Origin: Vairimorpha apis BRL 01 | Lineage: Eukaryota; Microsporidia; Nosematidae | Direction: 5' to 3' | Length of the DNA stretch: 36,926 bases | Assembly (NCBI GenBank): GCA_000447185.1 | Contig: KE647334.1 | Span: 12,435 to 49,360, forward strand | Shown here: positions 2 through 31,398 of the stretch, one piece after another | How the letters are laid out: every line of letters begins with the position of its first letter | How positions within the stretch are numbered: the stretch's first letter is position 1 | The notes under the pieces: generated by a model | What the model was told of the DNA's origin: nothing | What the model saw: the letters and a program-made list of their open reading frames with translations, nothing else | Database searches by the model: none | Position numbers and translations under genes: made by a program

Positions 2-510
2 TCTAATAAAGAAGTAACTGAGCATAGTTCACTTATGGAAAGTTTTAAAATTGGAATACCAAAACGAAGAAAAGTTGAAGATGACATAATTGAATATGAA
101 AGTGCTTTTTATAGAAATAATATTTGCAATATAAAAACATTATTGAAAATTCGAAAAAATTTAACTTTAATTGTAATTTAGAATTTAAAAATATTTTTAG
201 CGATAAATTTAATTTTGTAAATGAACCTGAAGTAATGAGAGATCAAACGACAATAGATCATTATAATGAAATTTCAATAGATGATGGTTTTTCTTGTCCA
301 AGTTTGCCTATATCTGATGTATGTGATGAAAGTAAAATGAAAGTTGAAGATTTACCTTCAAGTTTTGTTTTTGAAGAATATGTAAAAGATTTTGGACGAA
401 ATGAACAAGCAGAATGCTTTTATAGTTTGCTTAATTTAGCTTCACAGCAATTAATTGATGTAAAACAAGAATCTCCAATTTCTCCCATTTATTGTAATCT
501 TATTTCTTAA
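2..510 (+). CDS. RAD21: Cohesin kleisin subunit (RAD21/SCC1 or REC8), C-terminal part, frame broken
   Basis: This is the 3' end of a kleisin gene; the 5' part lies outside the window. Kleisins close the SMC1-SMC3 ring that holds sister chromatids together. The recognisable part is the C-terminal winged helix that binds the SMC1 head: its last 35 residues contain AECFYSLLNLASQQLIDVKQ, close to the family pattern of a CFY-LL segment followed by I-V-Q. The gene is read in two frames: positions 2-182 (a charged stretch with IPKRRKVEDD) and then from about 121 to the stop at 510. A one-base deficit in the A5 run at 133-137 or the A6 run at 154-159 would join them. Mitotic RAD21 and meiotic REC8 cannot be told apart from this piece. 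The domain call is firm; the exact junction is not. Confidence 0.8.
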
Positions 511-1238
511 GTGTTTAATGTTAAAAAAGTCTATTGTTTGAAATTATAATATGAATTATTTTTATTAAAATATTTAAAATATTTTTTGATATACTTTAAA
601 TTAAATCAACACCACTTTAAATATTAAAAATTTTTTCTTAAATTTACAAATTTTCAATAAAAATTTTATATATGCTTATTTTTAATTTAAATGATGATCA
701 AAATTAAAAGGCAATACAATAAACTAATATTAATTTTATATTTTTAAATAAGAATCTAAATTTTTTGAGATATAAATAAATAAAAATAACATACTCAAGA
801 TTTATTTGAGCACAATAATTTAAGTTTGTTTGAGTTATATATTGTTTATAATAAACAGGTTTAGAAAAAATTAACACACCAATTTTACAAAAAAATAACA
901 GAATATTTCTTGTTTTTTTACTTATGCATTTTATCAAAAAATTATTTTTTGAAATTTAATATGATATAATTTTTATATACATATCTTAAATTAGAATAAT
1001 TGACTTTCAATAATTATATATTATCATTATAAAAAATAATTCAAATTTTTAAAAATTGTTGGATTTAAATATATTTTTGAAAATAATATATTATAATAGT
1101 AATATTTTTAATAGATAAAATACATGACTTAAGATATTTAAGTTAATTAAAAAGTAAAAATCATATTTAAATTTCCTTTTTATTATTGAAATTTTACGCA
1201 AAATATATACCTAAATCTTTTTACAAAAATAAATGAAT
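511..1238. other. Intergenic, no gene seen
   Basis: This A+T-rich stretch separates the convergent ends of the kleisin and SAC3 genes. An open frame on the minus strand (704-937) is low-complexity, resembles no family and has no CCC signal, so I do not call it. Confidence 0.6.
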
Positions 1239-3049
1239 TTAGTATAATTTACTATTTTCCTCATAAAATACATCAATGTTATCTATTCGTTCTCTTTTGT
1301 CAATTTTGCTTATATAATCTTGTAAATTTTTAGAGTTACGATTATTTTTTATTAAATTCGTAACTATAGTGATCTGTTTAAGTCGACTTTTGTTATCTAA
1401 TAAATTATTTAATTTGTTTTTTACAACCCTATTACAATTATTTATTAAGTTTCCAATATCTTCTATTTTTTTATTTAGGTTTTGCGGTGTATCTATAATA
1501 CTATTTAACATTTTATATTTATTTTGAGTATCTTGTAAATAAGATTTGCCAACCGAAAATACTGATACACGATATTTTAGTAATAAATTTACACTTATTT
1601 CTTTAAATTTGAGAAATTCGGGATTGTATTTAGAAAGATTTGATTTTTTTACGTTATTAATGAATATGGCTGAAAAAATTGAATCATCAACAATAACAGC
1701 AAGCGATTTTGTATCTAAATTAGATATTTCTTTTTTATAAATATGTTTATTTAATATTTTTTTATATATAAATCTAAAATACAATAACAAATCTTTCGAG
1801 ATAAATTTTTTTTCTTTTCAAAAATTATAATTTTTTTATGCAAATCAGATAAAAAAATGGTAGATATAGCTTTGCAATAAATTTTCAAAATGACATTATA
1901 TATGTCTTTTAATGTTTCTGATTCAGAAGAAAATATTGCAAATTTAATTTTTTTAGGCTTTTCTAAATTTATAATCTCTGATTTCTTGGAACTGAAAAAT
2001 GGCTGTATTTTTCTCCTTATAAATAAATCTCTAATTATTTTAAAAATCTTATAATCAATATCACCAAAATAAATCATTATAGATGGATGAGTTAAATAAA
2101 TTAGTTCTTTTCTTGTTTTTATCAAAATATTTTCATTCTCAAATAAATCTTTATTCTTAAAATCAATTTTATTATCATTAAATTTTAAGTTAATTTTTTC
2201 ACATAAACTTTTCAATTCACATTCATTTGTCCATAATATTTTATTGAAAAAATTTTCTTCTATTTTTTCTACAAAACATTTTGCATAAATTTCCATCCCA
2301 CGTAATCTAACCTTATCAAAATAACTATGAATTATGCAATAACTAAAAAAATCCATTTTTCTAGCTAACCTAAAAAATTCTGAAATATTATTTTGTTTAT
2401 AACATCTCTTGATATAAAAACATTCTTTAATTTTTAATTCATTTGAATATTTTTCTAAAAATAAAAATTTTTCATCAAAAGTCATTAAAATATAATATGA
2501 TATAAATTCTACTTCATTTTGAGACATAAGTACACTATTTCGCTTTAAGTATAAATCATATAATGTACTTAAAATTTTTTTACATTGTTCTAAATTTAAA
2601 TGTGATTCAAATTCTTTTACATCGTATAAAGCCAAATTGTACAAAATATGAAATCTACATATTTTTTCTAATATACTAATGGTTGTATCACATTCAAGTT
2701 CTTGTATAGATATATCTAATCTTATGGCTCGGGTTCTATTTTCAACAAATTTATATAAATCTAATGAAAAATCATTAAAACAAAAACTTAAGATATGATT
2801 TAATGTTTTTTCTAATACGTTTATTGGTCTAACATCTTCAGGAAATGCTTTTGTTCGACCAGCAGAAGATCTATAATATTTTTTAACTAAAACATCTTTT
2901 TCGTACTTATTTATATCACCTCGAATTGTTCTTTCTATGTACTCAAAATATGGACAATATTCTTGACATGTGCCTCGAATTGTTCCTTGACATTCTGGTT
3001 TAAGATCTCTTTTAGAAGATAATTCTTTATATATGTGGTCTAAATTCAT
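1239..3049 (-). CDS. SAC3: SAC3/GANP-family mRNA export protein (TREX-2 scaffold), one apparent frameshift
   Basis: SAC3 is the scaffold of the TREX-2 complex, which couples transcription to mRNA export at the nuclear pore. The SAC3/GANP domain begins near the N-terminus: GTIRGTCQEYCPYFEYIER (about residues 22-40), then RSSAGRTKAFPEDVRPINVL (about 61-80), both hallmark blocks, followed by a long helical domain. The main frame stops at 1751. A second frame, overlapping it and running to 1239, continues with coding-like sequence (NLDTKSLAVIVDDSIFSAIF). One more base in the T7 run at 1757-1763 (A7 in the gene) joins them into about 603 residues. The start at 3049 is supported by a CCCC signal three bases upstream. 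It is transcribed away from RPL13A. Family assignment is firm; that the second frame belongs to the same protein is an inference. Confidence 0.88.
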
Positions 3050-3052
3050 TAT

Positions 3053-3056
3053 GGGG
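3053..3056 (-). promoter_or_regulatory. CCCC start-associated signal of SAC3
   Basis: CCCC on the minus strand, three bases before the ATG at 3049. This kind of C-rich signal just upstream of start codons is known in microsporidia; here it supports the chosen start. Confidence 0.65.
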
Positions 3057-3488
3057 TTTAAAAAGATTGTACTAGAAAATTTTAGTTTTATGTAAATAAA
3101 ATATTATTTATATAAGGAAAAGTATTTTTTTACATTTTATAATATAATAATTATATTAAATTTAAAGTAAAGTTAATATTTTTTTTGTATTTTGATCTAT
3201 CTTAAAATTTATTATTATTTTTTGTATTAATATTAAATGATCAGATAAAAATTATTTTATATTTTGGCTATTATTAACAAATTTTTAAAGTAACTCTATT
3301 TTTCTAAAAAAATGTTTTCTTAATTAAATTTTAAAATATTATATTAATAATAAAATTCAACACATATGATTAAAAAAAATTTTAATAATTATAAATTTTA
3401 TAAAATTTATTCATCTACTATTATTAACATAAAATTTTGTATGTTAATGATTTTTTTATTCAAATTTTATTATTTTAAAATTTATATA

Positions 3489-3492
3489 CCCC
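3489..3492 (+). promoter_or_regulatory. CCCC start-associated signal of RPL13A
   Basis: CCCC lies directly against the ATG at 3493, the shortest spacing in the window. Confidence 0.65.
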
Positions 3493-4086
3493 ATGCAGAA
3501 ACATTTAATTGTAGACGCAAGTGAACATGTAGCTGGAAAATTAGCTTCAAAAATTGCTAAACTTCTTCTTGAGGGAAATAAAATTACTATTTTATGTTCA
3601 GAACGTGCCATCTTAACAGGACCTCTTGAAAGATCAATTGATAAGTTTAAATCTTTTATGAATAAAAGATGTAGAGTAAATCCTAGAAGAGGCCCATTTC
3701 ATCACGTTCTTCCTTCCATGAGATTTACTAGAATTATTAGAGGAATGATTCCTTATAAACAATATAAAGGTAAAGAAGCTATGAAAAATTTAATCGTACA
3801 TGAAGGTATTCCAGCTGAATTTGAAAATAGTGAAAGAGTAAAATTTCCTAGCTGTTTATTAAAATATTGTAATAAACCTGGAAGAAAATACTCTACTTTA
3901 GGAGATTTGTTAGTTAAATTTGGATGGAAACATTCAAAAATAGTTAAAGAAATTACAGATAATATTATTGAAAAAGAAAAAACTAATAAGGATGAAGTTA
4001 TTAGTAAAGATGAAGAAATAAAAAAATATATGGAAAGTAATGAGTTTCAAGCAGAGTTAGAGAAAAGATTACTAATGATTAAATAA
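3493..4086 (+). CDS. RPL13A: 60S ribosomal protein uL13 (RPL13A; yeast Rpl16)
   Basis: A structural protein of the large ribosomal subunit, 197 residues, about the usual eukaryotic length. The uL13 fold is clear: N-terminal [18 protein letters not shown] (residues 6-23), [15 protein letters not shown] (about 57-71) and [18 protein letters not shown] (about 80-97). The eukaryote-specific C-terminal extension is charged and helical. The start is set by the adjoining CCCC. The frame is intact and includes an A7 run that reads correctly, so not every A-run in the window is affected by the frame problem seen elsewhere. In some microsporidia ribosomal protein genes carry short 5' introns; none is visible here. 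Confidence 0.96.
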
Positions 4087-4488
4087 ATTATTATTTTTTA
4101 TTAAATTTTTTAAAGTTTAAAAAATGTAAATATTTGGATTAAAAAATTTTTTAATAAATTTTGATATTATTTTGAATTAATTTCTTGCATAAATTAAAAT
4201 TTAAGCCATTTTAAAAAAACAATTACATAATATTATAGATATATTTTTTGTTTTACAAATAATACTATTTTTGACATAAAAAATTTAGAAATAAAAATTT
4301 AATAAATATAATTTTATTTTAAAATAGAAATTATTATATTTTTTTGTTTTATTTATTAATTTTAATAATTAAGTAAATATCTTAAAAATATCATTTGAAT
4401 TAACCTTATTTTATTATTTTTTATAGTCAAATAACATTAAAAAAACATAAAATATATTTTTAAATGATTCGTACAACACCCCTTTTTG
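4087..4488. other. Intergenic, no gene seen
   Basis: About 400 bases of A+T-rich sequence between RPL13A and the acyltransferase. Only the CCCC signal at its end stands out. Confidence 0.55.
4479..4482 (+). promoter_or_regulatory. CCCC start-associated signal of the acyltransferase
   Basis: CCCC six bases before the ATG at 4489; it favours this ATG over other in-frame possibilities. Confidence 0.6.
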
Positions 4489-5333
4489 ATGACTATAATA
4501 AGAAGTTACTTAATCGTGTTTCAAAAATTGACATACTTTTTTCTTTTGATTCTTGTATCTATATGTATTTTTGTTTATATACCAATAGGTTATTTAATAA
4601 GATTGTTTAATCTTAGATTTTCAATACAGATATCAACTTTTTTTATTTATATTTTTTGGGAAATAAATGATAAAATTTTTAAACTAACCTTTAAAATAGA
4701 ATGTAAAAATTTACTTAAAAATAATACAAACTATTTTGTTATTTCAAATCATACAAGTGCTTCTGATTTTATGGTTGTTAATTATTTATTTAATAAAAGA
4801 CAAACAATGAAAAATAATAAATATTTATTAAAGTCAGAATTAAAATGTATAATAGGCTTTTACCAATTAATGAAATTAGTAGGAGCTATTCCAGTAAGTA
4901 GAAATTATGCACAAGATGAGAAAAAAATAAAAAAGAATATTATGGAGCTCACTAAATATAAAATACCAGCAAATATAATATTATATCCTGAAGGATCGAG
5001 ATACAATGAAGAGACTTTAAAAAAAGTCATAATTATATAAAAAGTAAAAATTTGCAAATGTTGGATTATGTATTATATCCAAGATTTAGAGGTTTTGAAT
5101 TAATTTGTGATTGCTTAATAGATTCTGACATTAAATATGTTGTAGATTTGACTATTGTACATTTGAATAAAGTTCCTGCATTTTGGGAAATATTATTTAC
5201 GAATTTTACTGGAATGATAAAAATTGATATGGAAATTATTGATGTTAGTGAAATTAAAAATTATAGAGAATGGTTATTAGAAAGATTTGTTCGTAAAAAC
5301 ATTTTGATATCTAAAGTTAAAAATAATATATAA
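4489..5333 (+). CDS. 1-acyl-glycerol-3-phosphate acyltransferase family (PlsC/LPLAT), one apparent frameshift
   Basis: A membrane acyltransferase that adds a second acyl chain to lysophosphatidate or a related lysolipid in phospholipid synthesis, presumably in the ER. A hydrophobic N-terminal segment (about residues 8-40) is followed by the four family blocks: NHTSASD (NHx4D catalytic motif, about 87-93), VGAIPVSRN (about 131-139), LYPEGSRYNEE (EGTR-type block, about 165-175), and VLYPRFRGFE in the downstream frame. The first frame stops at 5040 and the fourth block lies in another frame ending at 5333. One more A in the A7 run at 5019-5025 joins them into about 281 residues, with the blocks in the right order and spacing. 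Substrate is not determined by sequence; AGPAT3-5/LCLAT-like members are the closest by the YPRxxGF block. Confidence 0.88.
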
Positions 5334-7009
5334 ATTTTGTTTTTCATAATAAATAATTTAAATTTTAAATTTTATGTTATATGTTATTATAGCTGAAATT
5401 TATTTAAAATTGAAAAATATGTTAAATTAAAAAAATTTAAACGATGTAATTTGAGTGTTTAGTAATACGAATTTTAAAATTTTTAAAATAATAAATCGTG
5501 AGATAAAATAAACCTAAAACAAAAGTAATGCGACAAAAAACAAAATATCTGAATAAAAGTGAGTAATGAAATATAAATTAACAAATTTGTGTAATAATTT
5601 ATAAATTTAAAGCAAATATTATTTTAATTAAATTTTCGAATACATAAAAATTTAATTTTTATTTTACATTATATTATAAATTATAGATAACTTAAAAAAA
5701 TTTAATTAATTTATAAATTTAGCATTGATTTTTAATGTTTTTAAAAACAATTTTCTATTTAAAAGAAACAAATAAAATTAATATTATAAAATATTTGCTT
5801 TTTAGTTAATCATGTATTTTATTTAAAATTATATCAACTCTTTTTTTAAATGTTGATTTATGTATATTTATATTAAAAAATAATTTTTGTTTATTAGAAG
5901 AATTTAAATATATTTTAATAAAAAAATTAAATTTTATAAAATATTATTTTTATTTTAAATTGTTATTGTCTTATTCTAAAATAATCTGTTTTTTATTTAT
6001 TATTTTCTTTAGGAAAAAAATCATTTCTTTTTTGTAAGTATTCATTTATAGTCATTATTTTAGAATAAATGTTGCAAGTCAAAGATTTATTAAAAATATA
6101 AAATTTTTTATAAAATAAATTTTTTAAATAAAAAATATAAAAATTTATTGTCTATTGAATGATAATAAACATACATAAGTTATATTCTTATAATAATTAT
6201 CTAATTACAATTATAAATATTTTTAATTTTTTAAAAAGTTTATTAAATTTTTTTTGTTTTAATTTTGTATTTGAAAGAAAAATATTGCATAAAATTTTAT
6301 TTATTTAAAAATTTAATAATTTTAAATATATTTTATTTATAATTTAATTTTTTATACTAGAAACAGCTTAAACCATATTATAGTTTGCTGATCTGCCTCT
6401 TCGAATTAGAAAATCTAATTTCTCTTCTGTACTTAATTTAAATGCTCTTAAAATTTTCATATAAATTATAGAATTAATATAGGCTTTAATTATGTCGATA
6501 ATGCAATTTTTTTATATGTTGAGTGCTATATGTTTACTATCCATCCAATGTTATACAAATTGTATATTTAAAAAAATATTTTTGAAATTTATTAAGATTG
6601 TATGCTGATAAAAATGTTAAAATGGTTATTTTTGTAATATCATAAACATTATATTTTTTATAAATTATGATAAATATTTATATATTCTTTAAATATATAA
6701 ACGCGTTATTATTACAATTTTTTAAAAAATTATAATAATGTTATAAATCTTAAATTATAATTTAATGATTATAAATCGATATGATTTTTAATTTTAAAAT
6801 AAATTTGCTGTAATTAATCAGTTTTGGATTGTTTTATTTTTATATAATATTTATAAAGTTTAATTTATAATTAAATCAGTATAATTTATTTATTTATTTT
6901 TTATGTGAAACTAAATTTACATGAGCAAATATTATCAGTTATAATCATTTTTTAAAAAAAAATGGATCAAAAGTACTATTTTAATTTTAAACCCTTCTTT
7001 GTTGTATCA
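5334..7009. other. Intergenic, mostly featureless, with one dispersed-repeat copy
   Basis: A+T-rich sequence with no supported gene. The only stretch of different composition is at about 6355-6560, annotated separately as a degenerate dispersed repeat. Confidence 0.5.
6355..6560 (-). repeat. Degenerate dispersed element, copy A
   Basis: Copy A of a three-member family (others near 21297-21480 and 30000-30300). The best-conserved core on the plus strand is GCTGATCTGCCTCTTCGAAT at about 6388-6407. On the minus strand it can be read as FLIRRGRSANYNMV followed by a stop, and the other copies give related peptides (RRCKLANYCF and LRGRSVNYCL). Conservation of the peptide sense suggests a decayed mobile-element gene, but I cannot name a transposase family. 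Confidence 0.5.
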
Positions 7010-7872
7010 ATGACTAAAAAAGTAAATAATGAAAATAAAAACAATGTTAACATTAAATCGAGTAAAAATGATATGAAGTGTTCAAATTTAAATAGTTCTA
7101 CATCAAAACCAAACTGTAAATTATCAAATATAAAACGAAATTTAAAACGAAAAAATGTTGATATTATTAATAGTGACGTAAATTTTGATAAAAATAAAAA
7201 CTTAAAGAAAATAAAATACGACACTGCAAAAGATACATATAAAAACGAAAAATTAAAAATGAATATTTAAATAAAGAAAATATGACTATAAATAATGAAA
7301 GAAAAATTAAGAATAATAAAAAGACTCTTAAAAATAATTTAAAAGAAAGTGATTGTAATGGATTACAAAAAAAGTTTCAATATATTATTAATAATTTAAG
7401 TTACAAAGAAACAGAAGAATCTTTAAAAAAATACTTTTCTACCTTTTGGGCGTATTGAAAAAATTTCTTTACAAAAAAACAAAAAAATATTTTTGTTGGT
7501 AAAGCAGTTATAACAATTAATAAACATTTAAAAATAGATAATGATTTTATATTGAATGGTAAAATTTTACGTGTTGAAAGAATAAAAGATCAAATGGTTA
7601 ATGACAAGAGAATTTTTGTGTCACATATAAATAAAAATTTAAGTATTTTGGATATTAGGAATATGTTAAAAGAAAATGAAATTAAACCTAGTGATATACG
7701 TATTAGATATGATTCTATAACTAAGAAAAACAATGGATTTTGTCATTTAACTTATAATAACAGATTAGAAGCAAAAAAATTTGAAAGTAAATGGAAATAT
7801 ATAAAAGAAAAATTAGGATTTGATTCTAATTATGAATATGCATACGAGAAACCAGAAAAATTTTATAAATAA
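7010..7872 (+). CDS. Two-RRM RNA-binding protein, possibly Nop12/RBM34-like; several apparent indels
   Basis: Probably a nucleolar RNA-binding protein. A basic, Asn/Lys-rich N-terminal region is followed by RRM1, starting at YIINNLSYKETEESLKKYF (7381 onward), with RNP1-like FVGKAVITI and ending NGKILRVERI. RRM2 follows almost directly: KRIFVSHINKNLSILDIRNM and NGFCHLTYNN. The close RRM1-RRM2 spacing with RVERIKDQMVNDKRIFV resembles Nop12/RBM34. The reading frame changes three times: a base short between 7243 and 7267, an extra T in the T4 run 7444-7447 (FGRIEK is restored without it), and a base short in one of the A7 runs at 7473-7479 or 7481-7487. Net length about 287 residues. The start at 7010 is preferred over the ATG at 6962 because a CCC lies 15 bases upstream, though that spacing is longer than elsewhere. 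It ends 20 bases from the oppositely oriented secreted-protein gene. Confidence 0.65.
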
Positions 7873-7892
7873 AAGTATTTTTTTTTATATAT

Positions 7893-9101
7893 TTAATAGA
7901 TATTTTCTGATGATTCTATAGTATCCCAACATATTGTATTTATACCTCCCATTTGTGATCCGCATTGTTCGTTACTACCTTTAAGAATAATTATAATATT
8001 ATTTCCGATTTGATAAATTATATTTTCAAGCTCCATTAATAATCTTCTTGCACTTTGATCTATTATTCTTCTAATTAATTTACATTCTTCATCTGTTAAA
8101 TCACAGAAATGTCTCGTTAATTTACAAATAAATTCTTCAATTGCTTTTGTAAGTTCTGTTAAAATTAAATTTTTATTTTCAATTATCGCTTTTCTTATTG
8201 CATTTAATTCAATTAAATTAGCTCTTCTAAAGAGATTTGTTAATATTGTTAATAGATCAGCAAATGATGTAGCAACTAAAGCTTGCACATCTGCTAATTC
8301 AACTGTTATCGGTGTTGTAGTTACGTCTGCACCTAATGCTGTCAAATTAGTATCAAGTGTTCTATTAGATAATGTTAAAGTTGACAATATTGTTTCTAAT
8401 ACTTCTTCATTTGTTTGTGTAATCACTGCTTCTATTTCTCTTAAAATATTTTTATTATATCTTATAACTATATCTAGAATTCGTTGCTCAAATCGTGAAA
8501 GATCACTAAATAATTTTTCTTGTGCACTTTTAATAAGTAATATCAAACCATCTTGAAGTTGACTTTTGAGGTCATCAGCAAAGAATTTTGACAATTTATT
8601 TACTTCACATATACCTTGATATAATACTTGTTGTATGAGTTTTATTTCATGATCAATAGATCTTTTTACAATACAATGTTCTTTTTTATGTTTATGTTTT
8701 TTCTTAGATTTAGGTTTGCATACAGGTTTGCACTCAGGTATACATCTTGAATGATGGTTAGGTTTACATATAGGAGGACATTCGGGTATACATATAGGAG
8801 GACAATAAGGTTTACATATAGGAGGACATTCAGGTATACATCTTGTGCGATGATAAGGCTTGTATATAGGTGGGCATATTGGAGGACATTCTGGCAGACA
8901 TGCTGGAGGACAAAGAGATGGATATTCATTTTCATAATAAGATATTTCTTCATAATCTTCGTAGTTAGGTATTGAATTTGAACGTATTAAATTATTTTGA
9001 TATTCAGGATTTTCATAATAATTCCATGAAAAATCTTCTTGACTTTCATAAGATGAAAAAATTAAATTTAACATCATTAATAAAGTTATTAATTTGCTCA
9101 T
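7893..9101 (-). CDS. Secreted Cys/Pro tetrapeptide-repeat protein, candidate spore-wall or polar-tube component
   Basis: I do not recognise a named family. The protein has 402 residues. Residues 1-17 form a signal peptide (MSKLITLLMMLNLIFSS). An acidic, Tyr/Asn-rich stretch (18-62) follows, then residues 64-131 form a tetrapeptide array (CPPI, CIPE, CKPx types) in which 14 cysteines all sit on a strict four-residue register. Next is a basic His/Lys stretch (KSKKKHKHKK, about 131-140), a KR site near 146-147, and a long helical region (about 150-370) with regularly spaced Leu/Ile, suggesting a coiled coil or helical bundle. Four further cysteines are near the C-terminus. The base composition is richer in G+C than its surroundings. 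A secreted, disulphide-rich repeat protein is what one expects of spore-wall or polar-tube material, but that is inference. It lacks the CCC signal seen at most other starts, as does PDHB. Confidence 0.75.
   Translation of the reverse strand: MSKLITLLMMLNLIFSSYESQEDFSWNYYENPEYQNNLIRSNSIPNYEDYEEISYYENEYPSLCPPACLPECPPICPPIYKPYHRTRCIPECPPICKPYCPPICIPECPPICKPNHHSRCIPECKPVCKPKSKKKHKHKKEHCIVKRSIDHEIKLIQQVLYQGICEVNKLSKFFADDLKSQLQDGLILLIKSAQEKLFSDLSRFEQRILDIVIRYNKNILREIEAVITQTNEEVLETILSTLTLSNRTLDTNLTALGADVTTTPITVELADVQALVATSFADLLTILTNLFRRANLIELNAIRKAIIENKNLILTELTKAIEEFICKLTRHFCDLTDEECKLIRRIIDQSARRLLMELENIIYQIGNNIIIILKGSNEQCGSQMGGINTICWDTIESSENIY
8697..8912 (-). repeat. In-gene tandem array of 12-bp Cys-tetrapeptide units, with 48-bp higher-order repeat
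   Basis: The array encodes residues 64-135 of the secreted protein. The basic unit is four codons beginning with Cys (CPPI, CIPE, CKPx). From residue 88 there are three successive 16-residue (48-bp) blocks: CIPE-CPPI-CKPY-CPPI, CIPE-CPPI-CKPN-HHSR, CIPE-CKPV-CKPK-SKKK. The last decays into the basic stretch. The minus-strand complement shows the repeated string TATAGGAGGACA on the plus strand. Such arrays expand and contract easily, so copy number may vary between strains. Confidence 0.85.
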
Positions 9102-9876
9102 ATAATTAAAATTTTTTATTTTTTAAGTATTAGTAGAAATGTTCTTTTAATCTAAAAAAATATTTAAATTTAATAAGAAAAAGAATGCTCGAAATTTTTT
9201 TTCAAAAAAATATCTCTAAAATTAATATATAATATTTTTACAAAAGTTTTTGTATGATGTTTATATATTTTTTAGTTAATTTAAATTAGTACAGATAATT
9301 TTAAAAAGACTATTTAAACAAAGTTTTTTTAAATTTATATTTATTATATATAAATGTAAACATATTATATATATGAACATATTTTCAATAAAATTAGAAA
9401 TATTATATATAAATTATTTTATAAAAAAATTTAGTGTATTATTATTAAGATTTTTATTTTTACCTATTAAAAATATTATAATTAAAAAAAACAGATTTAA
9501 AAATCATTTTTTATATGTACATATATTAAAAAATTATTTTGTTTAATATTTTGTAATTCAATAAAAGTTTTAAAAAATTTGATTTAATCGGATTTTATTA
9601 AATGTTAATTATTAATATATAAAAGAAAATTTTTTTAATAAATATTATTAATATGATCTGTTAAAAATGATATTTAAGATTTTAGTTTCAAAATATAATT
9701 AAATAAATTTATTGTTTTTTTTTGATAAAGATTTAAAACATTATACCATTCAGATATATATTTATAACGCAATTTTTTTGAAAATTAATTTAATTTTTTA
9801 ATTTTAAATATTTAATATTTTTAATATATTTTATAAAAAGAAAATGTTTATAAAATATATAGCATATAAAAAAATT
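9102..9876. other. Intergenic, no gene seen
   Basis: A+T-rich sequence between two minus-strand genes. It should contain the promoter of the secreted-protein gene; no distinct signal was recognised. Confidence 0.5.
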
Positions 9877-10562
9877 TTATTTTCTATATTTTCTTGTTTT
9901 GATTTCTCTTAAATCTTGTTTATCAATGTGTAATGTACCTATTTCATCTTTAAATTCATTTTTTTTGATTTTTTTATTTTTTTACTAATTTCACCAAAAC
10001 TTTTTTTATATAATTCATCACTACAATAATATTTATCTACTAATTCTAATTCAAAATAAGGACCAATATCTTCAATTTCATCATTTGATAATATTCTACA
10101 ATATTTAAAAATGTATTTTGAATCAATACATGAAAAAATCCAACAATATTTTATATTTTTTAAACAAACTTTAGAACTTTTCATATTAAAAACATCAATT
10201 ATTAAATTGCAAATTCTATCATCGGCTATGTTTTGTATAAAAATATAATACTTCATGTTTAACTCAGCACTGACTACATTTTTAAAAGTTGATTTACTGT
10301 TTATAATTTTAAACTTTAATAAATCTAAAATTTCATCATTAAAAGATCTTCCAAAAGAAAAAAATCCATTTGTAATAGTAAGAAATAATTTGCATTCATT
10401 TTTTTTCAATAATTTCTGAATAAGTGAATATTGTTTCATAGGATCAGATAATTTTTCTCTTATAACTTGAATACAATCTGATCTTATTTTTGTCACAATA
10501 GATTGAATTTCTTTATTCTTTTTACTTGTAATAATTGATAATACATTTAAACGTTTAGACAT
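9877..10562 (-). CDS. RPF2: Ribosome biogenesis protein RPF2 (Brix domain), one apparent frameshift
   Basis: RPF2 works with RRS1 in the nucleolus to bring the 5S RNP into the pre-60S particle. The Brix domain spans most of the protein, with the family's closing element DIGPYFELELVDKYYCSDEL, equivalent to the GPSLDL block of RPF2 followed by a SDDLYK-type stretch. The first frame ends at 9939 in a poly-Lys stretch. Downstream, another frame encodes IGTLHIDKQDLREIKTRK, which matches the RPF2-specific C-terminal signature (GRIHxxKQDLxxxQTRK). One more base in the T8 run at 9959-9966 (A8 in the gene) joins them into about 228 residues. The C-terminal signature distinguishes RPF2 from BRX1, SSF1 and RPF1. 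The start at 10562 has CCCC three bases upstream. Confidence 0.87.
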
Positions 10563-10565
10563 TTT

Positions 10566-13039: not shown

Positions 13040-14182
13040 ATGGTTGAATTATTAAAAGAAATAACGTTTGATATTACGAAATCTCTTGAAGTTGATTTAT
13101 CAACGAAGAAAAAACAAAAAAGACGCAAACGTGTAGATGATTATGATTATACAGACAATTTTATTGAACCATTTGAAGGAGAAGAAGATTTAGTTGAAAT
13201 CGAATGTTCGATTTCTAATTTTTTTGTCTATCAAGGAATTCTTCCTGGTTCAATAAAAAAAGTAATTAACCAGTACAAAAATAAAAAACCCGTCACACCT
13301 CCAAAAATGATGAGTGAATCTAGAATTCTTGAAGATGCACTTATAATGAGGCGAAAAAGAAAAGCAAGTTCTAATGTTTTATCGGATCCTTTTATTAAAG
13401 AAAATGAAGGATTAGAAGAAATTTATAATAAACTATCCAGTAAAAAAATTAAAAGCAAAAAGCAAAATATAGATAAAAAATTAGAAGATGTAAAAACCGA
13501 AAATGCTATTGAAAATTACGATAATTTGCCAGTATTTAATGATGAAGTTATTTATAAAGAAGTTGTTAATAATTATTTATATAAAAAATTTAAAAAATTG
13601 AAGGATAATTATGAAAATTTAAATGTAAACGATAAAATTGTTTATTTTGTAATAAATTATATGTTTTTTGAATACAATCCTGAATTATATGAAGAAAATG
13701 AAAAAATATGTAAAAAAATTACAGTTGATATAGAAGAAGGAGAAATTTTAGATCCTAATTCAGATTTTGTTAAATATAAAAATATTAATGAAAAAACTAT
13801 GATATAAATTTATATGCAAAAATCAAACAATTTTTTACTGATTTTGAATTGGATGAATTTAGCAGAAATTTAATAAAAAAATTGATGAAGTATTTATGAA
13901 AATATCAATCTTTTTAAATGATAGAACTAATTATTCTTCTGATAAAAAAAATTTAACAATGTCAGAAATAATGAATTTAAAGAAAACTGTGTATCATATT
14001 GTATTAATTATATCATGAAGCATTACACAGTTAACACTAAAAAAACAGTTGTTGAATATATAAATGAAGCAAAAAGAAATATTGAAGATTTATTTTATCC
14101 AGTTGAAAAACGAATACGCATTTTGTATCTAGTAAATAATCGCATAAGAGATATGATAGAGAAAAATAATTTTAAATATTAA
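13040..14182 (+). CDS. HPC2: Hpc2/ubinuclein-like subunit of the HIR (HIRA) histone chaperone; three apparent frameshifts
   Basis: The HIR/HIRA complex deposits H3-H4 independently of replication; Hpc2/ubinuclein is its histone-contacting subunit. The Hpc2-related domain is visible at about residues 31-70: RRKRVDDYDYTDNFIEPFEG and, shortly after, SNFFVYQGILPG, matching the family pattern of an acidic D-Y-D-x-x-D-x-FI block followed by FFV-x-x-G. The rest is Lys-rich and helical. The first frame stops at 13807, but coding-like sequence goes on to 14182, ending NRIRDMIEKNNFKY. Three A-runs each one base short (A6 at 13791-13796, A7 at 13875-13881, A8 at 13944-13951) would give one protein of about 381 residues. 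The domain call rests on a short motif; the three-step joining is inference supported by the continuing codon character. Confidence 0.72.
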
Positions 14183-14957: not shown

Positions 14958-15733
14958 TTAATATCTTCCTCTGTAAAAATTTTGTAGTATTAAATTATTA
15001 TCATCATTAGATGCAATTCTATTTCTTTTATAATAATTATATGATAACTTAAAAAATATACAAACTATAGCTATTATACTAATAATATTGCTTAAAAGTA
15101 TAAATATATATATACTTGTTTCAGGTGCATTTATATCTTGTATTGAAGTTTTAGAAACAATTTCATTACTAGTTTTATTATAGTCTGAATCAATGTTAAC
15201 ATATAAATGTAATTCTATAGGAGAAGTATACGAGACATATGGAATAAAATCTGGTGTAAATCTCCAAAACATTTTACTTTTAATAAATTTATTTAATATG
15301 TTTTTATCGTGTTTAAGTGTTTTAATAATATTATCAAAATTATTAAATAAACATAAATCTTTCATAAAATCAAAACTAAAACTCATTATAGAATCATAAG
15401 AAGGTCTGTGTTTTTCATGTAAATTAATAATACTTAATTTTGGCATATAAACATATTCTTTGTTTAAAAATGAATTAATAATGGAGAATATTACATCATC
15501 ACAAAGAATTTTAGCACTTATGTGATCAAGATATGATGTATTATTTTGAATTAAATTTATATCATCCATAGCATTTTTTAAAACAATTTTACAAAAATTA
15601 TTAACATTTACAAATTGATTAATATCACTTTTAAAATTATAGTTTCTAATTATAGAAATTTCTTTTTTTTTGTATTAGCAAAATTAAAAGAATTCATTGA
15701 ACCTTGATGTATAATAAGTTGAATAAATCTCAT
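14958..15733 (-). CDS. Unrecognised protein with one C-terminal membrane segment; one apparent frameshift
   Basis: I do not recognise this gene. The frame starting at 15569 encodes 203 residues ending in one strong membrane segment (IFILLSNIISIIAIVCIFF) and a short basic tail with RNR and RGRY. Upstream sequence in another frame is also coding-like: an ATG at 15733 (MRFIQLIIHQGSMNSF) leads to a T9 run at 15663-15671 (A9 in the gene), and one more base there joins it to the main frame, giving about 258 residues. No convincing signal peptide is seen, so the topology could be tail-anchored. A Trp/Phe-rich stretch (FWRFTPDFIPYVSY) precedes the membrane-proximal region. There is no CCC signal at either start. 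Function unknown. Confidence 0.6.
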
Positions 15734-17137
15734 ATAGAAAAATCAAAATTAACATGGTATTAAAATAAAATCTTTATTTATTTTATATTTTATCATCTAT
15801 TGATTATTTTTTGATAACTTTTAAATTAAAAAAATGTTTTGATTTCAATAAAAATTTTGAAACAAGTTAAAAAATTTTAATTATTTAAACAAATTTTTTA
15901 AAAAATCATTATTTTTGAAATTTATTTTAAATTTATTTTTTTGAAAAAATATATTTTATAGTCGGTATAAAAAAATTTAATTCATTATTTTATTAAAATC
16001 AGAAAAAATTAATTAATTTAATTTGATTAATTATGAAATAATTTTTTTTGTATCGACTATAAAATATATTTTAAAAAATTTCTTTATAAAAATAAAAAAT
16101 ACCAATAATAATGTTAAAAAAATTGATTTTAAATTTATAATATATAAATAAAAAAAATTTATATATAATAAAATATTATTTGTACTTAATAAAAAAGTGC
16201 ATTTAACTTGTACTACCAAAAAACTGTATATGTTTTTTTATATTCTATGTATTCTGCTATTATACGTCTTTATGTGTTTATCATCAATATAAATTGTGTA
16301 AAAAATTTTCTATTATGCACAATCTAGTTATTCGAAAATTTTTTATTAATTATATAATGTACATATAAAACATTATCAAATATAAAAAATATCAATAATA
16401 ACTATTTATAATAACTTAATGTGAACGAGCAACCAAACACAATAAAAAACATTATAATTTAGAGCATAATTAAATATTCTGTACTCAATAATTACTTATA
16501 ATTATTTTCTTAAAATAAAAAAAGATGTAATTGAAATTTACTTTTTAAAGTAATAAAATATTGTTAAAAAGTTAATGAATTTTATATATTTAATAAATTA
16601 AAGATTTGCGATGACGAAAATTTAATGAATAAAATAATAAGTTTCAATATGATAACTGTAAAAAATAATAAATTTATTTTATATAAAAGTACTACTTTTT
16701 AAAAATATATCAAAATTATATACTTTAAAAAAATTATACGAAGATTAAATTTTATACATAAATATTGTTTTCAAAAAACAAATAAAAGACATCAAAAATG
16801 AATATTAGATAAATTAGAAAAAAAAATTTAAAACTTTCTTGAAAAATTAAAATTTATCTTAAATTGGTTAAATTTAAAAAAATACATAACTTCATCTAAA
16901 TTTATACAAAAAATTGTATAAAAGTTTTAATAAAAAATAGTTTTAGAAATTTTGGACATAAAAATAATGTCAATTATAAAAATGTCGAAAATATTTTTCT
17001 TATTTTTGTCTATAAAAAAATTTTTATTCTATAAATTTTTATAATTTTAGTTTGTTACAGATTAAATTCATAAATTATTTTTAAATTAGAATTAAATTGC
17101 TTTAGAAACATCAAATCTCATTATCCATATTAATTTC
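15734..17137. other. Intergenic, no gene; contains a long imperfect inverted repeat
   Basis: About 1.4 kb of very A+T-rich sequence between two minus-strand genes. The only structure is the inverted repeat at about 15944-16077. A minus-strand open frame at 16031-16219 overlaps that structure and is low-complexity, so I do not call it. Confidence 0.5.
15944..16077. repeat. Imperfect inverted repeat with arms of about 50-60 bases
   Basis: The left arm contains ATATATTTTATAGTCGGTAT (about 15950-15968) and the right arm its near-exact complement around GTATCGACTATAAAATATAT (about 16050-16069). Arms extend imperfectly on both sides, with a loop of roughly 40 bases. The match includes TAGTCG, unusual in this composition, so chance is less likely than for pure A/T hairpins. 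It could be a small decayed transposable element or a structured RNA end; nothing decides between these. Confidence 0.5.
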
Positions 17138-18869
17138 TTATTTTTTATCTTTATTAAAAAATAGTCTAATTTTGATTTTTTATTTTTTAATTCTTTTTCT
17201 TTTTCATTTAAGCACTTATTAACGTGAACTTCAAAAACTTTATTATCTATATGTATATATTCTTTATTGCAAATCATACATATCTTATGATTATAAATAA
17301 CACTGTTAAATGAAATTTGATATCGTTTATTAATATCTACCAGATCACTACAACTTATTCCAAGTAATCGTATTTCTGATATTACTGTGTAAAATTCATC
17401 AAAATTTTTCTTTACTAATATTTTAGATTGTATTAATAAACTAAAACATTCATTAAATATTTCATAATCTTCGTTAACAAATAATTTCAATTTTTTTTGT
17501 TTACTTTTACTACTAAAAGAGCTAAATTTATAGCTAAGAGAAATATTTCCACATTTCAAATTTTTACATTTCAATTTATTACTTAATCTACTACTTAGAT
17601 TCCATAAAACACTACAAATATCATGAAACACATTAGTTGGTCTAAAACTCAAAGACTGTCCGATTGAATGATTTGAAGCCTTTGAACGTCTAGAAGATTG
17701 ATCAAAAACTGATAATCCATAACTTAAGTAATACAAATTTAAAAATGTTTTATAAGGAAGTGTTAAATATAATAAATGTATATTATCTCTTAATTCTCTA
17801 ATATATTTTATATTGTATGCTTTAAGCAACATTTCTTTAGTAGCTTTTCCTATTCCATTAATTTTATCTGTTTCTAAGTCTAAAATATGTGAATCAAAAT
17901 CTTTATCAATTGTAAAAATCCCATTTGGTTTATTTATACCACAAGCAAATTTCGCTAATCCTCTAGTAACAGAAATTCCTGCACTAACCGTAAGACCTGT
18001 GTTTTTATAGACAAGATATCTAATATTGTTTATTAATTTTTTCATATTTTTATAATTGAAAACTAAATCTACTTTTTTTAAATTAATTTCTTCTTGTTGA
18101 TTATGATTTATTTTTAATTTCTCGTAATTCTTTGAATTTTTATTTGTAGTAATATTATTTGGTTCATATTTTATTTTATTTTCTTCATGTACAAGAGATG
18201 TATTAGATACTTCAATTATTTCATTAATTTTTCGTGCAGCATTTAAAAATTTTTCTTTATCAAAAATCAAACAAGCTTCATCAATTCCATATATTTCAAT
18301 TTCTTTATCAAAATTAGCTAATACTTCCATAACCATCTCAGAATACATATTGTATTTAAAAAATCACATTTAACTATATGTAACATCGGACATATTTGCT
18401 TAGCCATGTATCCTGGCATACCTGCCTTAATACCATATTCTCTTGCTTTATAATTACATGTAGCCAACATGTTCATTGATCCTACACCTAAAGGAATATC
18501 TTTATAATGTGGGTTATCTAAAGATTCACAACTGGCATAAAATGAATCTAAATCAATATGTGTGTATATATAATGAGGAGGAAATACAAAAAGTCCAGGA
18601 AAATCAATTTGAAATTGTGTTGTTAATTTTTTGATATACAATTTTGAGACATCAATTTGACTTTTTGTAAGAAATTTTAATTTTAATTTTAAATCAAATG
18701 ATTTTTCACGAATTTTATATAATTTATTATCTTGATTTTCATTAAAAGAATCGTCAAGTGTTGCGATACCAATATTTTTTATACTTAAAACATTTGATTT
18801 TTCATCTTTAATAGTATTTAATGGCGTATCTTGTGTAGATAAATTTTGAATATTATTACTATCTTCCAT
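17138..18869 (-). CDS. POLK: DNA polymerase kappa/DinB-type Y-family polymerase; two apparent frameshifts
   Basis: A translesion polymerase that copies past damaged bases. The N-terminal extension (about 1-100) is followed by the catalytic HIDLDSFYASCE (about 104-115), ATCNYKAREYGIKAGMPGY (about 136-154), IYGIDEACLIF (acidic pair at about 197-198), a NKPNGIF block, a helix-hairpin-helix NGIGKATKEMLLKAYNI and the little-finger entry with SLSFRPTN. Near the C-terminus is a UBZ-type zinc finger (C531, C534, H549, C553), used to bind ubiquitinated PCNA. The frame changes twice. The A6 run at 18358-18363 is one base short, splitting the palm. The A6 run at 17156-17161 is also one base short: adding it ends the protein at 17138 with SKLDYFFNKDKK, a good PCNA-binding (PIP) motif, instead of an unrelated 25-residue tail to 17092. 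About 577 residues. The start has CCC six bases upstream. Confidence 0.9.
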
Positions 18870-23376: not shown

Positions 23377-23383
23377 TTTTTTA

Positions 23384-25798: not shown

Positions 25799-26767
25799 AT
25801 GATAAAAATAAAGGATTTAATAAATCAAGCTCTTGATGAAGAAATGGCTAGAAATGGTGATGTATATATAATAGGAGAAGAAGTTGGTAAGAGTGGTGGA
25901 CCAAATGGTTTAACTAAAAACTTAATAAGAAAATATCCGAATCGAGTTATAGACACACCAATTTCGGAAATGGGTTTTACTGGATTAGCAGTTGGTAGTT
26001 CATATTTAGGTTTAAGACCAGTAGTTGATTTTATGACAATGAATTTTGCACTTCAGTCAATCGACCACATTATAAATAGTTGTGCAAAAACTTTATATAT
26101 GTCAACATCAATAAATTGTCCAATTGTATTTAGAGGACCAAATGGTTTCAGTAAAGGTTTTGGTGCACAACATACTCAAGATTTTTGTAGTTTATACGGT
26201 AACATTCCCGGATTAAAAGTTGTATGTCCATACACTGGAAAAGATCATAAAGGTCTTCTAAAATCCGCTATACGCGATGATAATCCTGTTGTTTATTTAG
26301 AAAATGAAATGTTGTATAAAAATGAAGTGCACAATGTTGATTCTGATTATATACAACAATTAGATAAAAGCGTGGTTGAAAAAAATGGAACAGATTGTAC
26401 TATAATTGGAATAGGATTAAGCATGCAAGAAGTATTTAAAGCTGAAGATGTTTTAAATGACATTAATATTGATTGTGAGATAATAAATTTGGTATCTATC
26501 AGGCCTTTGGATAAGAAAACTATTCTTGATAGTGTAAATAAAACAAAAAAATTAGTTGTAGTTGACTACGGATATCCATTGTATGGAGTGGCAAGTGAAA
26601 TATCTGCATTAGTGGGTGAAGTAATTTTTGATAAGTTGGAATTTCCAGTTGTTAGGTTGCAATCTAAAGATGTTCCTACGCCATATTGTAAAAAACTTGA
26701 AGATTTATGTTATCCCAAATGTGATGATATAGTTGAAGAAGTCAAGAAAATGTTTTTAAATAAATAA
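25799..26767 (+). CDS. PDHB: Pyruvate dehydrogenase E1 component, beta subunit
   Basis: With the alpha subunit it forms the thiamine-diphosphate enzyme that decarboxylates pyruvate. The 322 residues match the E1-beta plan: LDEEMARNGDVYIIGEEVG (about 12-30, with the conserved Glu of the cofactor site), DTPISEMGFTGLAVGSSYLG (about 52-71), FRGPNG, the GAQHTQDFCSLYGNIPGLKV block (about 121-140), then the transketolase C-terminal domain with LVSIRPLDKKTILDS and PTPYCKKLEDLCYP. There is no mitochondrial targeting extension: the protein starts directly with MIKIKDLINQALDEE. That fits microsporidia, which keep E1 alpha and beta but lack E2 and E3 and have only mitosomes. The alpha gene is not in this window. 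No CCC signal is seen at its start. The frame is intact. Confidence 0.96.
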   Translation: MIKIKDLINQALDEEMARNGDVYIIGEEVGKSGGPNGLTKNLIRKYPNRVIDTPISEMGFTGLAVGSSYLGLRPVVDFMTMNFALQSIDHIINSCAKTLYMSTSINCPIVFRGPNGFSKGFGAQHTQDFCSLYGNIPGLKVVCPYTGKDHKGLLKSAIRDDNPVVYLENEMLYKNEVHNVDSDYIQQLDKSVVEKNGTDCTIIGIGLSMQEVFKAEDVLNDINIDCEIINLVSIRPLDKKTILDSVNKTKKLVVVDYGYPLYGVASEISALVGEVIFDKLEFPVVRLQSKDVPTPYCKKLEDLCYPKCDDIVEEVKKMFLNK

Positions 26768-28475
26768 ATTTTAATATAAATATTTTTTAAGTAATCAAAA
26801 TATTTAATTTTAAAAATTAATTATTCTAAATCTTTACGATAATAAAAATAATATATATAAATTTATTAAATTTTACAAATAAAAACATTATTATTTAATA
26901 AAATTATTTTAATACTACTTTAAAAACAAATGCAAAAAAAACTTAATTAAATTTTCATTTTGTATAAAAAATTTAAATGTATATTTTTTATATTTGAATA
27001 TAGTTATAAATTATAATATAAAAAACGATGTTAACATTATATATAACATTATTTAATTTTAATTTTGTATAATTTAATCAAAAATGTTTTAAATTAAAAT
27101 AACTATTAAATTGTTTGATTACAATTTATATAAAAAATATTTCTAATAACGTTTTAAAAATTTTATTTAAATTAGTTATTTAATTATTTTTTTATTTATC
27201 TATTCATTTTCAATTTCAAATTTATCTAAAATTAATAAAACCGTATCTATAAAATTTTTTTACATGAATGTATATTAATTATGAATTATTCTGGTTTATA
27301 TTTTTTTATAATCAAAACTTTAACACTACAAATCGATCAATGTAGTGATTTTATTAAAATTATTTTAGATTATATTTAATTTTTATGTAGTCATTAATCA
27401 AACTACGTTTCTATATTATCTTGTTTAATTATAAATTATTAAAATAAACTATATTTTATTTTGTTATTTTTAAAAAATTTAATTAACATTTTACCAAATT
27501 ATTTATTTTGATCATCTGAATTCACAATTCATTTTCAAATGTTTATTTTAATTTTGTGTTTATATTAAATTTAAATTTAGGTAAACCTGTTAAATTAATA
27601 AACTTGCAGAATATTAATTTCTTTTAAAGAAAATAGAATTTAGTAATGAATTTTAAAAAAAAAGTTGTAATAACAGAAAATCTAAATTTAATTTTTTCGA
27701 TAAACAGGAATATTATATAAAATGAAAAATTTTTTGACTTGTTTGAATTTAATCAAAATAATTCATTTACTTAGTATATGAGAAAACAATAATTAAAAAT
27801 TAAATATTGAATATAGTTATAAGTTAAATAAAAAATATATTAAAATTTAACGATTATATTGATAAAATATTAAAAATGAAAGCCAACAATTATAAAATAA
27901 ATTTTGTTATGATTTTGAAAATAAAATATTTAAATTCTTATATTTATTTTACATAAATAATACAATTTTTAAAAATTAAAGTCTATTGTTTACATTTTAG
28001 TTTATCACTATCTCCATTTATCACTATATTATTTAACATTCTTGTTTTTTCAAAAAAAATATTTTATTACTTATTTAAATTTCGTTTTTTTATAATTATT
28101 TTTATTTATTATTGTAAACAACTATAAAATAATAACCTAATAAACCTTTTTAATTTATTATTGTAATTACTTTTTTTAGTTAAATTTCTAAATTTTTAAT
28201 ACATAATTTAATACAATTTATATTTTTAACTTAAAAAGTTTTTCCTTTTTAATAATTTACACTAAAATTAATTTGAATGTCTTTTAAAATTAAACTTATA
28301 ATATATAATTTTAAAATGTTTCATATATATTTTAAAATTATTTAGTTCTTTCAGATTATGTAAATGATTTTAATATTAAAAAAAATCTATATTTAAAAAT
28401 AAATTTATTAATTTTTTTTGAACTATTCATTTAACAACCTTTTAGAAATAATAATTCAAAAAAAAATTTAAAAAA
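26768..28475. other. Convergent intergenic region, no gene seen
   Basis: About 1.7 kb of very A+T-rich sequence. A 7-bp inverted repeat (CACTACA and TGTAGTG near 27324-27347) is the only structure noticed. Confidence 0.5.
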
Positions 28476-29132
28476 TTAAATAATATCAAATACATATCGA
28501 ATAAATAAAGTAAACGTAAAATCAAAAAGATTAGTATTGTCATCTCCTACAATAGATTGATAAAATTTCTTGTTAAATTTTTTGTCATCAAACTTTACTT
28601 TTATATTTTTAAAAACTTCTTTGTTATTTAAAACAATTTTATAATTATTTTCTTCAATATTCGGTTTAAATTTAACGTACCTATAAAATTTAGTTGAAAT
28701 TATTAATAATTGAGAAATTGTTAATCGTTTCCAAATATTAAATTGTTCAAATACGCGTTTAAGATAATATGGAAAATAATCATTATTAATATTAACAGAA
28801 CCTCCAAGACTTCGAACATTTGTTGAATTATTATGAAAATTTTTAGTTCTATCATCAACTATATCTGAAACTAAAGATTTACATTTACTTAAATCAGAAA
28901 TCTCTAAATGAACGATAATTATTAATATATCAATCAAATTACTACAATGAATCGATTCTAAATGTTTAAATGAAGTAGCAAATACATCTTTTAATGTTTT
29001 GTGTTCTTTTTCAGATAAATCTTCAAGATTATAGATTTTGTTTTTGTTTGTCCATATTAAATATTTTAAAAAGTAAATTGACAAACATATGAATATTAGG
29101 AAAAGTATTATATAAAAAGTATAAAATTTCAT
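28476..29132 (-). CDS. Membrane-anchored protein of unknown function, paralogue 1
   Basis: I do not recognise a family. The 218 residues begin with a hydrophobic segment (YIILFLIFICLSIYFLKYLI, about residues 7-26) that looks like a signal anchor. Next come a charged KNKIYNLEDLSEKEH stretch, a helical region with SFKHLESIHCSNLIDILIII, a variable Asn/Ser-rich loop (about 98-117), and a C-terminal part with WKRLTISQLLIIS and NNYKIVLNNKEVFKNIKVKF, ending FTFTLFIRYVFDII. About two thirds of residues match, by eye, the protein encoded at 32065-32739, including both ends, so this is a lineage-specific family. The start has CCC eight bases upstream, the same spacing as in its paralogue. Whether it goes to the ER, plasma membrane or is exported to the host cannot be told. 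Confidence 0.8.
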   Translation of the reverse strand: MKFYTFYIILFLIFICLSIYFLKYLIWTNKNKIYNLEDLSEKEHKTLKDVFATSFKHLESIHCSNLIDILIIIVHLEISDLSKCKSLVSDIVDDRTKNFHNNSTNVRSLGGSVNINNDYFPYYLKRVFEQFNIWKRLTISQLLIISTKFYRYVKFKPNIEENNYKIVLNNKEVFKNIKVKFDDKKFNKKFYQSIVGDDNTNLFDFTFTLFIRYVFDII

Positions 29133-29140
29133 GTATTAAT

Positions 29141-29143
29141 GGG
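29141..29143 (-). promoter_or_regulatory. CCC start-associated signal of paralogue 1
   Basis: CCC on the minus strand eight bases before the ATG at 29132. Confidence 0.6.
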
Positions 29144-29999
29144 TAGAAATTCAATTTACATATAAATATAATTAAATATTATTAAGATCACATTTAATTA
29201 AATTCAAATTATATTAATTTTTAAAAAATTTACAATAACAAATTATATTAAATATATCACATAGGTTATACTAATTTTTAATATTTTTGTATAATTTTAA
29301 TTAAAAAATATTCATAAGAATAATTCTATGTAAATATTTGTGTCAATTCAAATATGTAATAAATTATAATTTTTTAATTTAATATGAACATGCTTAATAA
29401 AATTAGAAATACAAGAAAAATGTATAATTTAAAGATTTTCAATAAATTCGAATTTCAAATATTTGTATAAAACTTGATACATAAAAAACTGCTAATTATT
29501 TTTTATAACATAACGATGTTGATATATTAAAAAAATAAAAAGTATAGAAGATAATAATTATTATAAAAAACTAAGATAATTACTTTCTTTTTATATAGTT
29601 AAATAAGATGTTTATGAACTTTTGTACTAAATAAAATAATTAAAACTAGAAATAGTCAATTAAGTATTTTTTAATTTAAATGCAAATATAACGTAATCAT
29701 CTTTAAAAATTGAGTATTCATAATAAACATTAATCTTATAAAAAATCATAAATTTTTTATAATTATTTTTATTTATAGAAATTTACAATTTTTCTTTTTT
29801 TTATGTAAATATTTACTTGATGCATTTTTAAATGAGAATAAATTGTGAAAAATAAAAAGTTATTTTAATTAATGTATTCTAATATAAATTACGACTATAA
29901 AAACAGACTTAAAAATACGATATAATAAACCAGACATACTCCTAATTAATAAAATAAAAAAACTACTTATAGTGAAATAAAAGTTACATCATTTGACAA

Positions 30000-30300
30000 T
30001 TTACAACAAGTCAAGTAAGAAAAAATGATAAACTTACAAATGGATTGGGTCTATTACATAGATGTAAGCCAAAGATTATACCATATGTATTAATGTTGGA
30101 CGTTATGTGAGTAAGTACGTTCTAAACACAGAAAGTAACTTGGTATCATCTACAGAATTGATGTGTACATTTAATCCAAAACTCTTAAAAAGACTCTTAA
30201 AAGTATTACAATAGAGTATATGAGAGGAGGCAGGATAGCAGAAACCTAAGAGGCAGATCAGTAAATTACTGTTTGTCTAAAAACGATACTAGCATAAACA
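30000..30300 (+). repeat. Degenerate dispersed element, copy C (best preserved)
   Basis: This block is conspicuously less A+T-rich than its surroundings and is the inverse of copies A and B. Its complement contains TTTACTGATCTGCCTCTTAG, matching the shared core. On the plus strand, broken frames can be read: MDWVYYIDVSQRLYHMY, then a later KSITIEYMRGGRIAET and, one frame over, LRGRSVNYCLSKND. Several stops and frame changes interrupt it. The composition and dispersal suggest a transposon relic, but no catalytic motif is visible and no terminal repeats were found. Confidence 0.5.
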
Positions 30301-31048
30301 AAAGAAAAATTAAATTAAAACACAAATAAACATACATTTTTTAATATTTAAAATTATTTAATATTATTTAATAAAGATTTTATTCAAATTTAACACATTA
30401 ATGTCATATATTGATTTGTATAAAATATTTATTTTCTTTTTTTACAAAAATATAAAATTTATATATTATATTTGAACATGAATAGAATATTAATTATTAT
30501 TAATGTTTTAAAATTCTTATCTTTTTATTTTTTTATATATTCAAGTATTCTATCTTTCAATCACTTTAAAATTTTTTTTAAGAAATTATAAGAAAAAGTT
30601 TCTTTTCATAAATAACTAAATTTAAGTTTTTTTAAAAAATTAATATATAAAAATCATCTTAAATTTTTTTAAAAAAGTTTTATTTAATTTTTTCATGTAT
30701 AATAAATTCAAGTTTTATAATATAAAAATCATCTTAAAATTATTAAAACGTTATATTTTATTTTTGAGTTTTAAATTATTTAAATTTTTGTAAATACGAA
30801 TTACACTAAACACATTGTTATTTTCATTAAAACTTAACATATCACTTATAGGCAATTTTATTAAATATATGTTATGTGTTGATCGTTTCACATAAACACA
30901 AGAGTTTCAAATCTTAACACGAATATGAACAAACAGTTTCAAGTCTATCTACAACACAGATCATTTTATATAACAATTGATTTGTAAAAAATAATTTTTT
31001 TAACCGTCAGATAAAAATAAATTTTTTTAAATTTTCTAAACCTTTAAA

Positions 31049-31398
31049 ATGGCCAAACAAAAAAAAGAAACAACACAGATCGTCAATTATTTTTCGCAGA
31101 TAACGAAAATACAGTATATGCGATAATCAGAACTCCACTTGGACAAGGTCAATTTAAAGTAGATTGTAGTGATTCGATAAGCAGAACTGCAGTAATAAGA
31201 GGACGAGATTATAGAAGAGTTTGGATACAACCAAATGATATTGTTTTACTTAGTATACGTGAAGGAAATAATTTAAGAGCTGATATAGAACTTAAATATA
31301 TGGCGAAAGAAATTAAAATATTGAAAGATAATGGTTATATTGATGACACATTTGGAAATGTAAGTGAAAATGTTAAAATAGATTTTGATCAAATATGA
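31049..31398 (+). CDS. EIF1A: Translation initiation factor eIF1A, one apparent frameshift
   Basis: eIF1A binds the ribosomal A site and supports scanning and start-codon selection. From about 31078 to the stop at 31398 one frame encodes the OB fold: FFADNENTVYAIIRTPLG, VIRGRDYRRVWIQPNDIVLL and REGNNLRADIELKYMAKE, matching the RGKxRKKVWIxxxDIILVxLR and KADVILKY blocks of the family. The short C-terminal tail ends KIDFDQI, a reduced form of the usual acidic tail. The ATG at 31049 is in another frame; one more A in the A8 run at 31059-31066 joins it and yields the expected basic N-terminus (MAKQKKRNNTDRQ). About 116 residues, shorter than the usual 140-150. It stands between the two paralogous membrane-protein genes, on the opposite strand. 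Only a CC, not CCC, precedes its start. Confidence 0.9.

Follow-up and report, generated by a model that had tools for sequence, protein, structure and literature searches.

Genes and reading frames of the window

The window, that is, the whole stretch of 36,926 nucleotides that was analysed (Vairimorpha (Nosema) apis BRL 01, contig KE647334.1, positions 12,435 to 49,360 of the forward strand), comes from an assembly of 5.96 Mb in 223 contigs (GCA_000447185.1). G+C content was 15.6-20.0% in 14 sampled 10-kb stretches and 10.6% in one 4.4-kb contig end. The microsporidian small-subunit rRNA family (RF02542) had no match in the copy of the assembly that was searched, and the organism was assigned from its proteins. 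Vairimorpha bombi was set aside as a source, its assembly having 28.7% G+C and being built from Nanopore and Illumina data (PMC10989860). The genes in which breaks of the reading frame were predicted, and one intact gene used as a negative control, are listed below with the differences of frame found here.

121..510, plus strand: C-terminal part of a Rad21/Rec8-like kleisin (Pfam PF04824); deficit near 173 from the reference-free caller
1239..3049, minus strand: SAC3/GANP-family gene (Pfam PF03399); one break, run 1757-1763, one base short
4489..5333, plus strand: acyltransferase (Pfam PF01553); one break, run 5019-5025, one base short
6962..7872, plus strand: RRM protein (PF00076 in the intact copy P0141); two deficits and one excess
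9939..10562, minus strand: RPF2-like Brix protein (Brix E 3e-4, under the Pfam cut-off); deficit near 9966, reference-free only
13040..14182, plus strand: Hpc2/ubinuclein-like gene (Pfam PF08729); deficits at 13791-13796, 13875-13881 and 13944-13951
14958..15674, minus strand: membrane-protein frame (open reading frame); run 15663-15671 at its upstream end
17092..18869, minus strand: DNA polymerase kappa (Pfam PF00817 and PF11799, IMS and IMS_C); deficit near 18358, a probable second at 17141-17146
25799..26767, plus strand: PDHB, intact, negative control; no frame event against P0001
31049..31398, plus strand: eIF1A (Pfam PF01176); deficit at 31059-31066, directly after the start

The L13 and PDHB families were also recognised in the window with Pfam. 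No Pfam family was matched by the membrane-protein frame, and the name RPF2 is carried over from the original prediction for a putative Brix protein whose match here is sub-threshold. The reading frames at 28476-29135 and 32065-32751 resemble each other, both having a hydrophobic N terminus, and are probably paralogues in a lineage-specific family; the first of them, which was scanned, gave no Pfam match. The protein encoded at 7893-9122, which starts with hydrophobic residues and contains a repeat stretch rich in Cys and Pro, likewise had no Pfam match. The A+T-rich segment at 5000-6500 matched a further 42 places in the assembly, in either orientation and at 65-84% identity, some of them internal, and represents either a dispersed repeat or low-complexity similarity.

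Intact copies in other assemblies

Two probes carried pieces of seven of the broken genes. For six of the seven, a near-identical full-length protein was found outside the window's own assembly, with 91-100% identity over the matched stretch: SAC3 (P0122, 588 aa), the acyltransferase (P0142, 281 aa), the RRM protein (P0141, 303 aa, on a contig of 5,013 bases), the Hpc2-like protein (two copies of 381 aa, P0124 and P0125, the former on 10 contigs of which the longest has 13,796 bases), Pol kappa (P0121, 577 aa) and eIF1A (P0140, 116 aa, in a single frame on a contig of 1,393 bases). More distant proteins in a single frame were also found, for eIF1A in V. necatrix (P0144), for Pol kappa in a relative (P0126) and for the acyltransferase (P0145). 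The RPF2 piece matched no copy in a search limited to lengths of roughly 233-740 residues and to sampled words, a scope from which a miss tells little. Among the best 120 of 7,998 matches of the PDHB control there were copies at 100, 88 and 68% identity, with proteins of Vairimorpha ceranae and Nosema bombycis in the group that followed.

Each intact copy stands for a cluster (1-15 members) of proteins that were predicted from other data sets, so that broken members of the same clusters stay hidden, and the source tag of the copies, lgn, is taken to denote assembly of public read sets. All six sit on contigs that exceed the size of the gene, by a wide margin in some cases. This suggests that the copies are DNA rather than mRNA.

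Single-base differences of frame

Frameshift-tolerant alignment of the intact proteins with the window gave ten single-base events in the six genes, nine deficits and one excess, against none in the PDHB control over 322 residues of P0001. With these events scored as differences, codon identity in the six broken genes was 98-99%. The original prediction was confirmed in part. The ten A/T runs that it named as the sites of lost bases are all present where it placed them, and six of them (1757-1763, 5019-5025, 13791-13796, 13875-13881, 13944-13951 and 31059-31066) were upheld as deficits by comparison with the intact proteins. In the Hpc2-like gene the three deficits jointly restore the first frame. 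In the RRM gene, alignment with P0141 placed deficits near 7248 and 7482 and an excess near 7444. An expectation that nearly all changes go the same way was correct as a trend (nine of ten aligned events, and 29 of 37 calls in the wider sample described below) but not as a rule, as excesses occur.

The two proposed sites in Pol kappa fared differently. Against P0121, to which 566 of 577 residues are identical, a one-base deficit was found at 18358-18363; the intact protein has Tyr at this site, so the missing base adjoins the sense T run and is not simply within it. The intact protein remains in frame across 17156-17161, where a second deficit had been misplaced, and stops 15 residues short of the end of the window's frame. 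From this an eleventh difference is inferred, in which a deficit at the run 17141-17146 extends the C terminus.

For the remaining three genes, a deficit near 9966 in the RPF2-like gene came from the reference-free caller alone, in agreement with the proposed run 9959-9966, and the kleisin deficit near 173, from the same caller, had no A/T run of at least 5 within 12 bases. No event was called at 15663-15671 in the membrane-protein frame, and nothing in this analysis supports a break there. At 2798-2840 of SAC3, the copy P0122 is without 15 residues that the window's frame carries; a mistake or a wrongly predicted intron in the other data set may be the reason.

Frame calls and run lengths across the assembly

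With 60 long reading frames as its training set, a reference-free frame caller was applied to 18 stretches including the window (185,481 bases, of which 73,229 were called coding), and calls were counted where at least 60 coding bases lay on each side. The counts exclude one stretch that overlaps the window (L010), a further one (L012) and a small remainder of L015, and they include the readable parts of L014, L017 and L026. In validation the caller gave the right label to 115 of 120 random losses and to as many of 120 random gains. Deficits outnumbered excesses by 29 to 8 (binomial p = 0.0008), and the calls were scattered across much of the sample; a threshold of 30 bases gave identical counts and one of 90 gave 27 deficits and 7 excesses. 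Six of the deficits lay within the window. There the caller did not pick up eIF1A, the end of Pol kappa, the three closely spaced Hpc2 events or two of three events in the RRM gene, and it therefore undercounts.

Deficits were concentrated at homopolymers. The longest A/T run within 12 bases had a mean length of 6.4 at deficits, 4.4 at coding positions drawn at random (6,800 of them; p = 6e-9) and 5.6 at the 8 excesses (p = 0.08). It measured 5-8 at 22 of the 29 deficits and 9 at three; at the other four there was no A/T run of at least 5, and these, with the excesses, which make up 8 of 37 calls, count against the reading as consensus errors given below. Among sense A runs, the proportion with a nearby deficit climbed from 1% at length 5 to 17% at length 8 (5/485, 5/232, 6/122 and 5/30 at lengths 5, 6, 7 and 8, and 2/12 at 9 or more). 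For sense T runs the corresponding counts were 0/231, 0/92, 0/37, 1/5 and 1/5. Over runs of 5-12, 23 of 881 sense A and 2 of 370 sense T runs had a deficit (Fisher p = 0.014, with lengths unmatched). By longest nearby run the tally of A to T was 25:4, against 155:69 simulated at equal chances (p = 0.08); with the p value moving from 0.014 in the crude comparison to 0.08 in the simulated one, the preference for A runs is retained as a weak leftover only.

The spectrum of run lengths was shortened as well. Up to length 8, every extra base halved the number of non-coding A/T runs (414 at 7, 201 at 8); beyond it the number fell faster, to 54, 8 and 1 at lengths 9, 10 and 11; in coding sequence there were 159, 35, 16 and 1 at lengths 7 to 10. 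With the trend of the shorter runs as yardstick, this loss is as expected if long runs were called short.

Source of the frame breaks

The frame breaks are real in the letters of the assembly and are best explained as 454 consensus errors, not as biology; the probability of this reading is put at roughly 0.96. The BRL 01 genome is described in PMC3726280 as sequenced by 454 Titanium at 15x on non-repetitive contigs and assembled with the Celera assembler. In such an assembly, at about 15x and 17-19% G+C, the signal of an A/T run would often be rounded down by one base and sometimes up. Each one-base error would shift the reading frame, so that conserved genes appear split while the cell's own genes are intact. 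We infer that base calling or consensus building, rather than library preparation, introduced the errors, and the RPF2-like, membrane-protein and kleisin genes would presumably obey the same rule as the tested genes. Under-calling of homopolymers, one of two explanations offered in the original prediction, is thus favoured by the chemistry, the intact copies elsewhere, the rise of deficits with run length and the shortened run-length spectrum. A nanopore consensus, first suspected from the run-length cut-off, was dropped because the BRL 01 genome is 454.

Errors of this kind have precedents. A comparison of 454 with Illumina data reports A/T-biased, length-dependent homopolymer errors and states that 20% or more of the genes of low-G+C genomes may carry frameshift errors (PMC3277595), and in the 454 genome of Nosema ceranae, a relative of the window's species, 58 gene joins were made on the assumption of a single-base frameshift error (PMC2685015). 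The present case is like them in its A/T runs, length-dependence, conserved-gene breaks and platform; relative to the main data of PMC3277595, G+C is lower in the window's genome, and no other difference of substance was seen. In the accessible part of PMC3726280 the words homopolymer and frameshift are absent, and the corresponding parts of PMC11592040 and PMC8206274, on Nosema genome structure and an N. ceranae nanopore assembly, hold nothing on N. apis frame errors. Among titles and abstract openings no report of such errors in N. apis was found, which is not to deny that one exists.

The other explanation in the original prediction was that the short runs are real in the DNA and that slippage of RNA polymerase yields full-length mRNA from part of the transcripts; such rescue has been proposed for Buchnera and Blochmannia. 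Slippage rescue in poly(A) tracts of those endosymbionts is reported with the indel in the genome itself, in eight genes of B. vafer, and with Blochmannia tracts counted at 9 or more (PMC3017870). The likeness lies in an A+T-rich intracellular genome with one-base homopolymer indels in important genes; breaks near A runs, the involvement of essential genes and the commoner deficits at sense A than at sense T runs (at the crude and simulated p values given above) also speak for slippage. Unlike in the endosymbionts, intact frames exist here in other assemblies, some on far longer contigs, and the calls are dense across the sample. For the six genes that have an intact copy, these near-identical frames contradict the premise that the runs are short in the genomic DNA, and slippage as a means of tolerance thus finds no support in them. 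Long runs are lost in non-coding DNA too, excesses are also present, and the three deficits in a short stretch of the Hpc2-like gene would demand three slippages per transcript. Polymerase slippage is not needed as an explanation, and as a general account it is given hardly any weight. A mixed case, in which a minority of the breaks are real and slippage-rescued on A runs, above all in the RPF2-like, membrane-protein and kleisin genes, is marginally less improbable, at a chance that is still very small. Slippage rescue would, to our knowledge, be the first such case in a microsporidian.

Real frameshift alleles or pseudogenes peculiar to BRL 01, with the genes intact in other isolates, are rated as improbable as slippage throughout. 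The intact copies differ in up to about 2% of residues, as in Pol kappa, and may therefore come from other isolates. Against this, eIF1A, SAC3 and other conserved genes are broken yet otherwise 98-99% identical, with no decay beyond the frame break in the six genes, the calls are spread widely through the sample, and the increase with run length agrees with base calling. The deposited eIF1A model, which is built from several pieces, might suggest programmed ribosomal frameshifting or short introns. This idea is contradicted for six genes, if the intact copies are DNA, by their near-identical single-frame proteins; the distant eIF1A, Pol kappa and acyltransferase proteins P0144, P0126 and P0145 are also in single frames, and an unsystematic look noticed no common motif besides the run. 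It is regarded as the least credible of the alternatives.

Consequences for gene models

The eIF1A protein deposited for V. apis BRL 01 (P0143, 165 aa) is a model in several pieces over 30074-31395, whereas P0140 is one frame. The main part of P0143 matches 30904-31395, and its unusual N-terminal stretches match 30074-30163 (97%, 30 residues) and 30243-30305 (68%, 22 residues). These additional stretches look as if the annotation had been fitted around the frame break. Nothing new on cell biology follows from the breaks themselves. Their bearing is on the annotation: where an A/T run falls within a gene, the gene models, gene counts, calls of gene loss and claims of introns derived from this assembly are unreliable, and the deposited eIF1A model looks like one such case.
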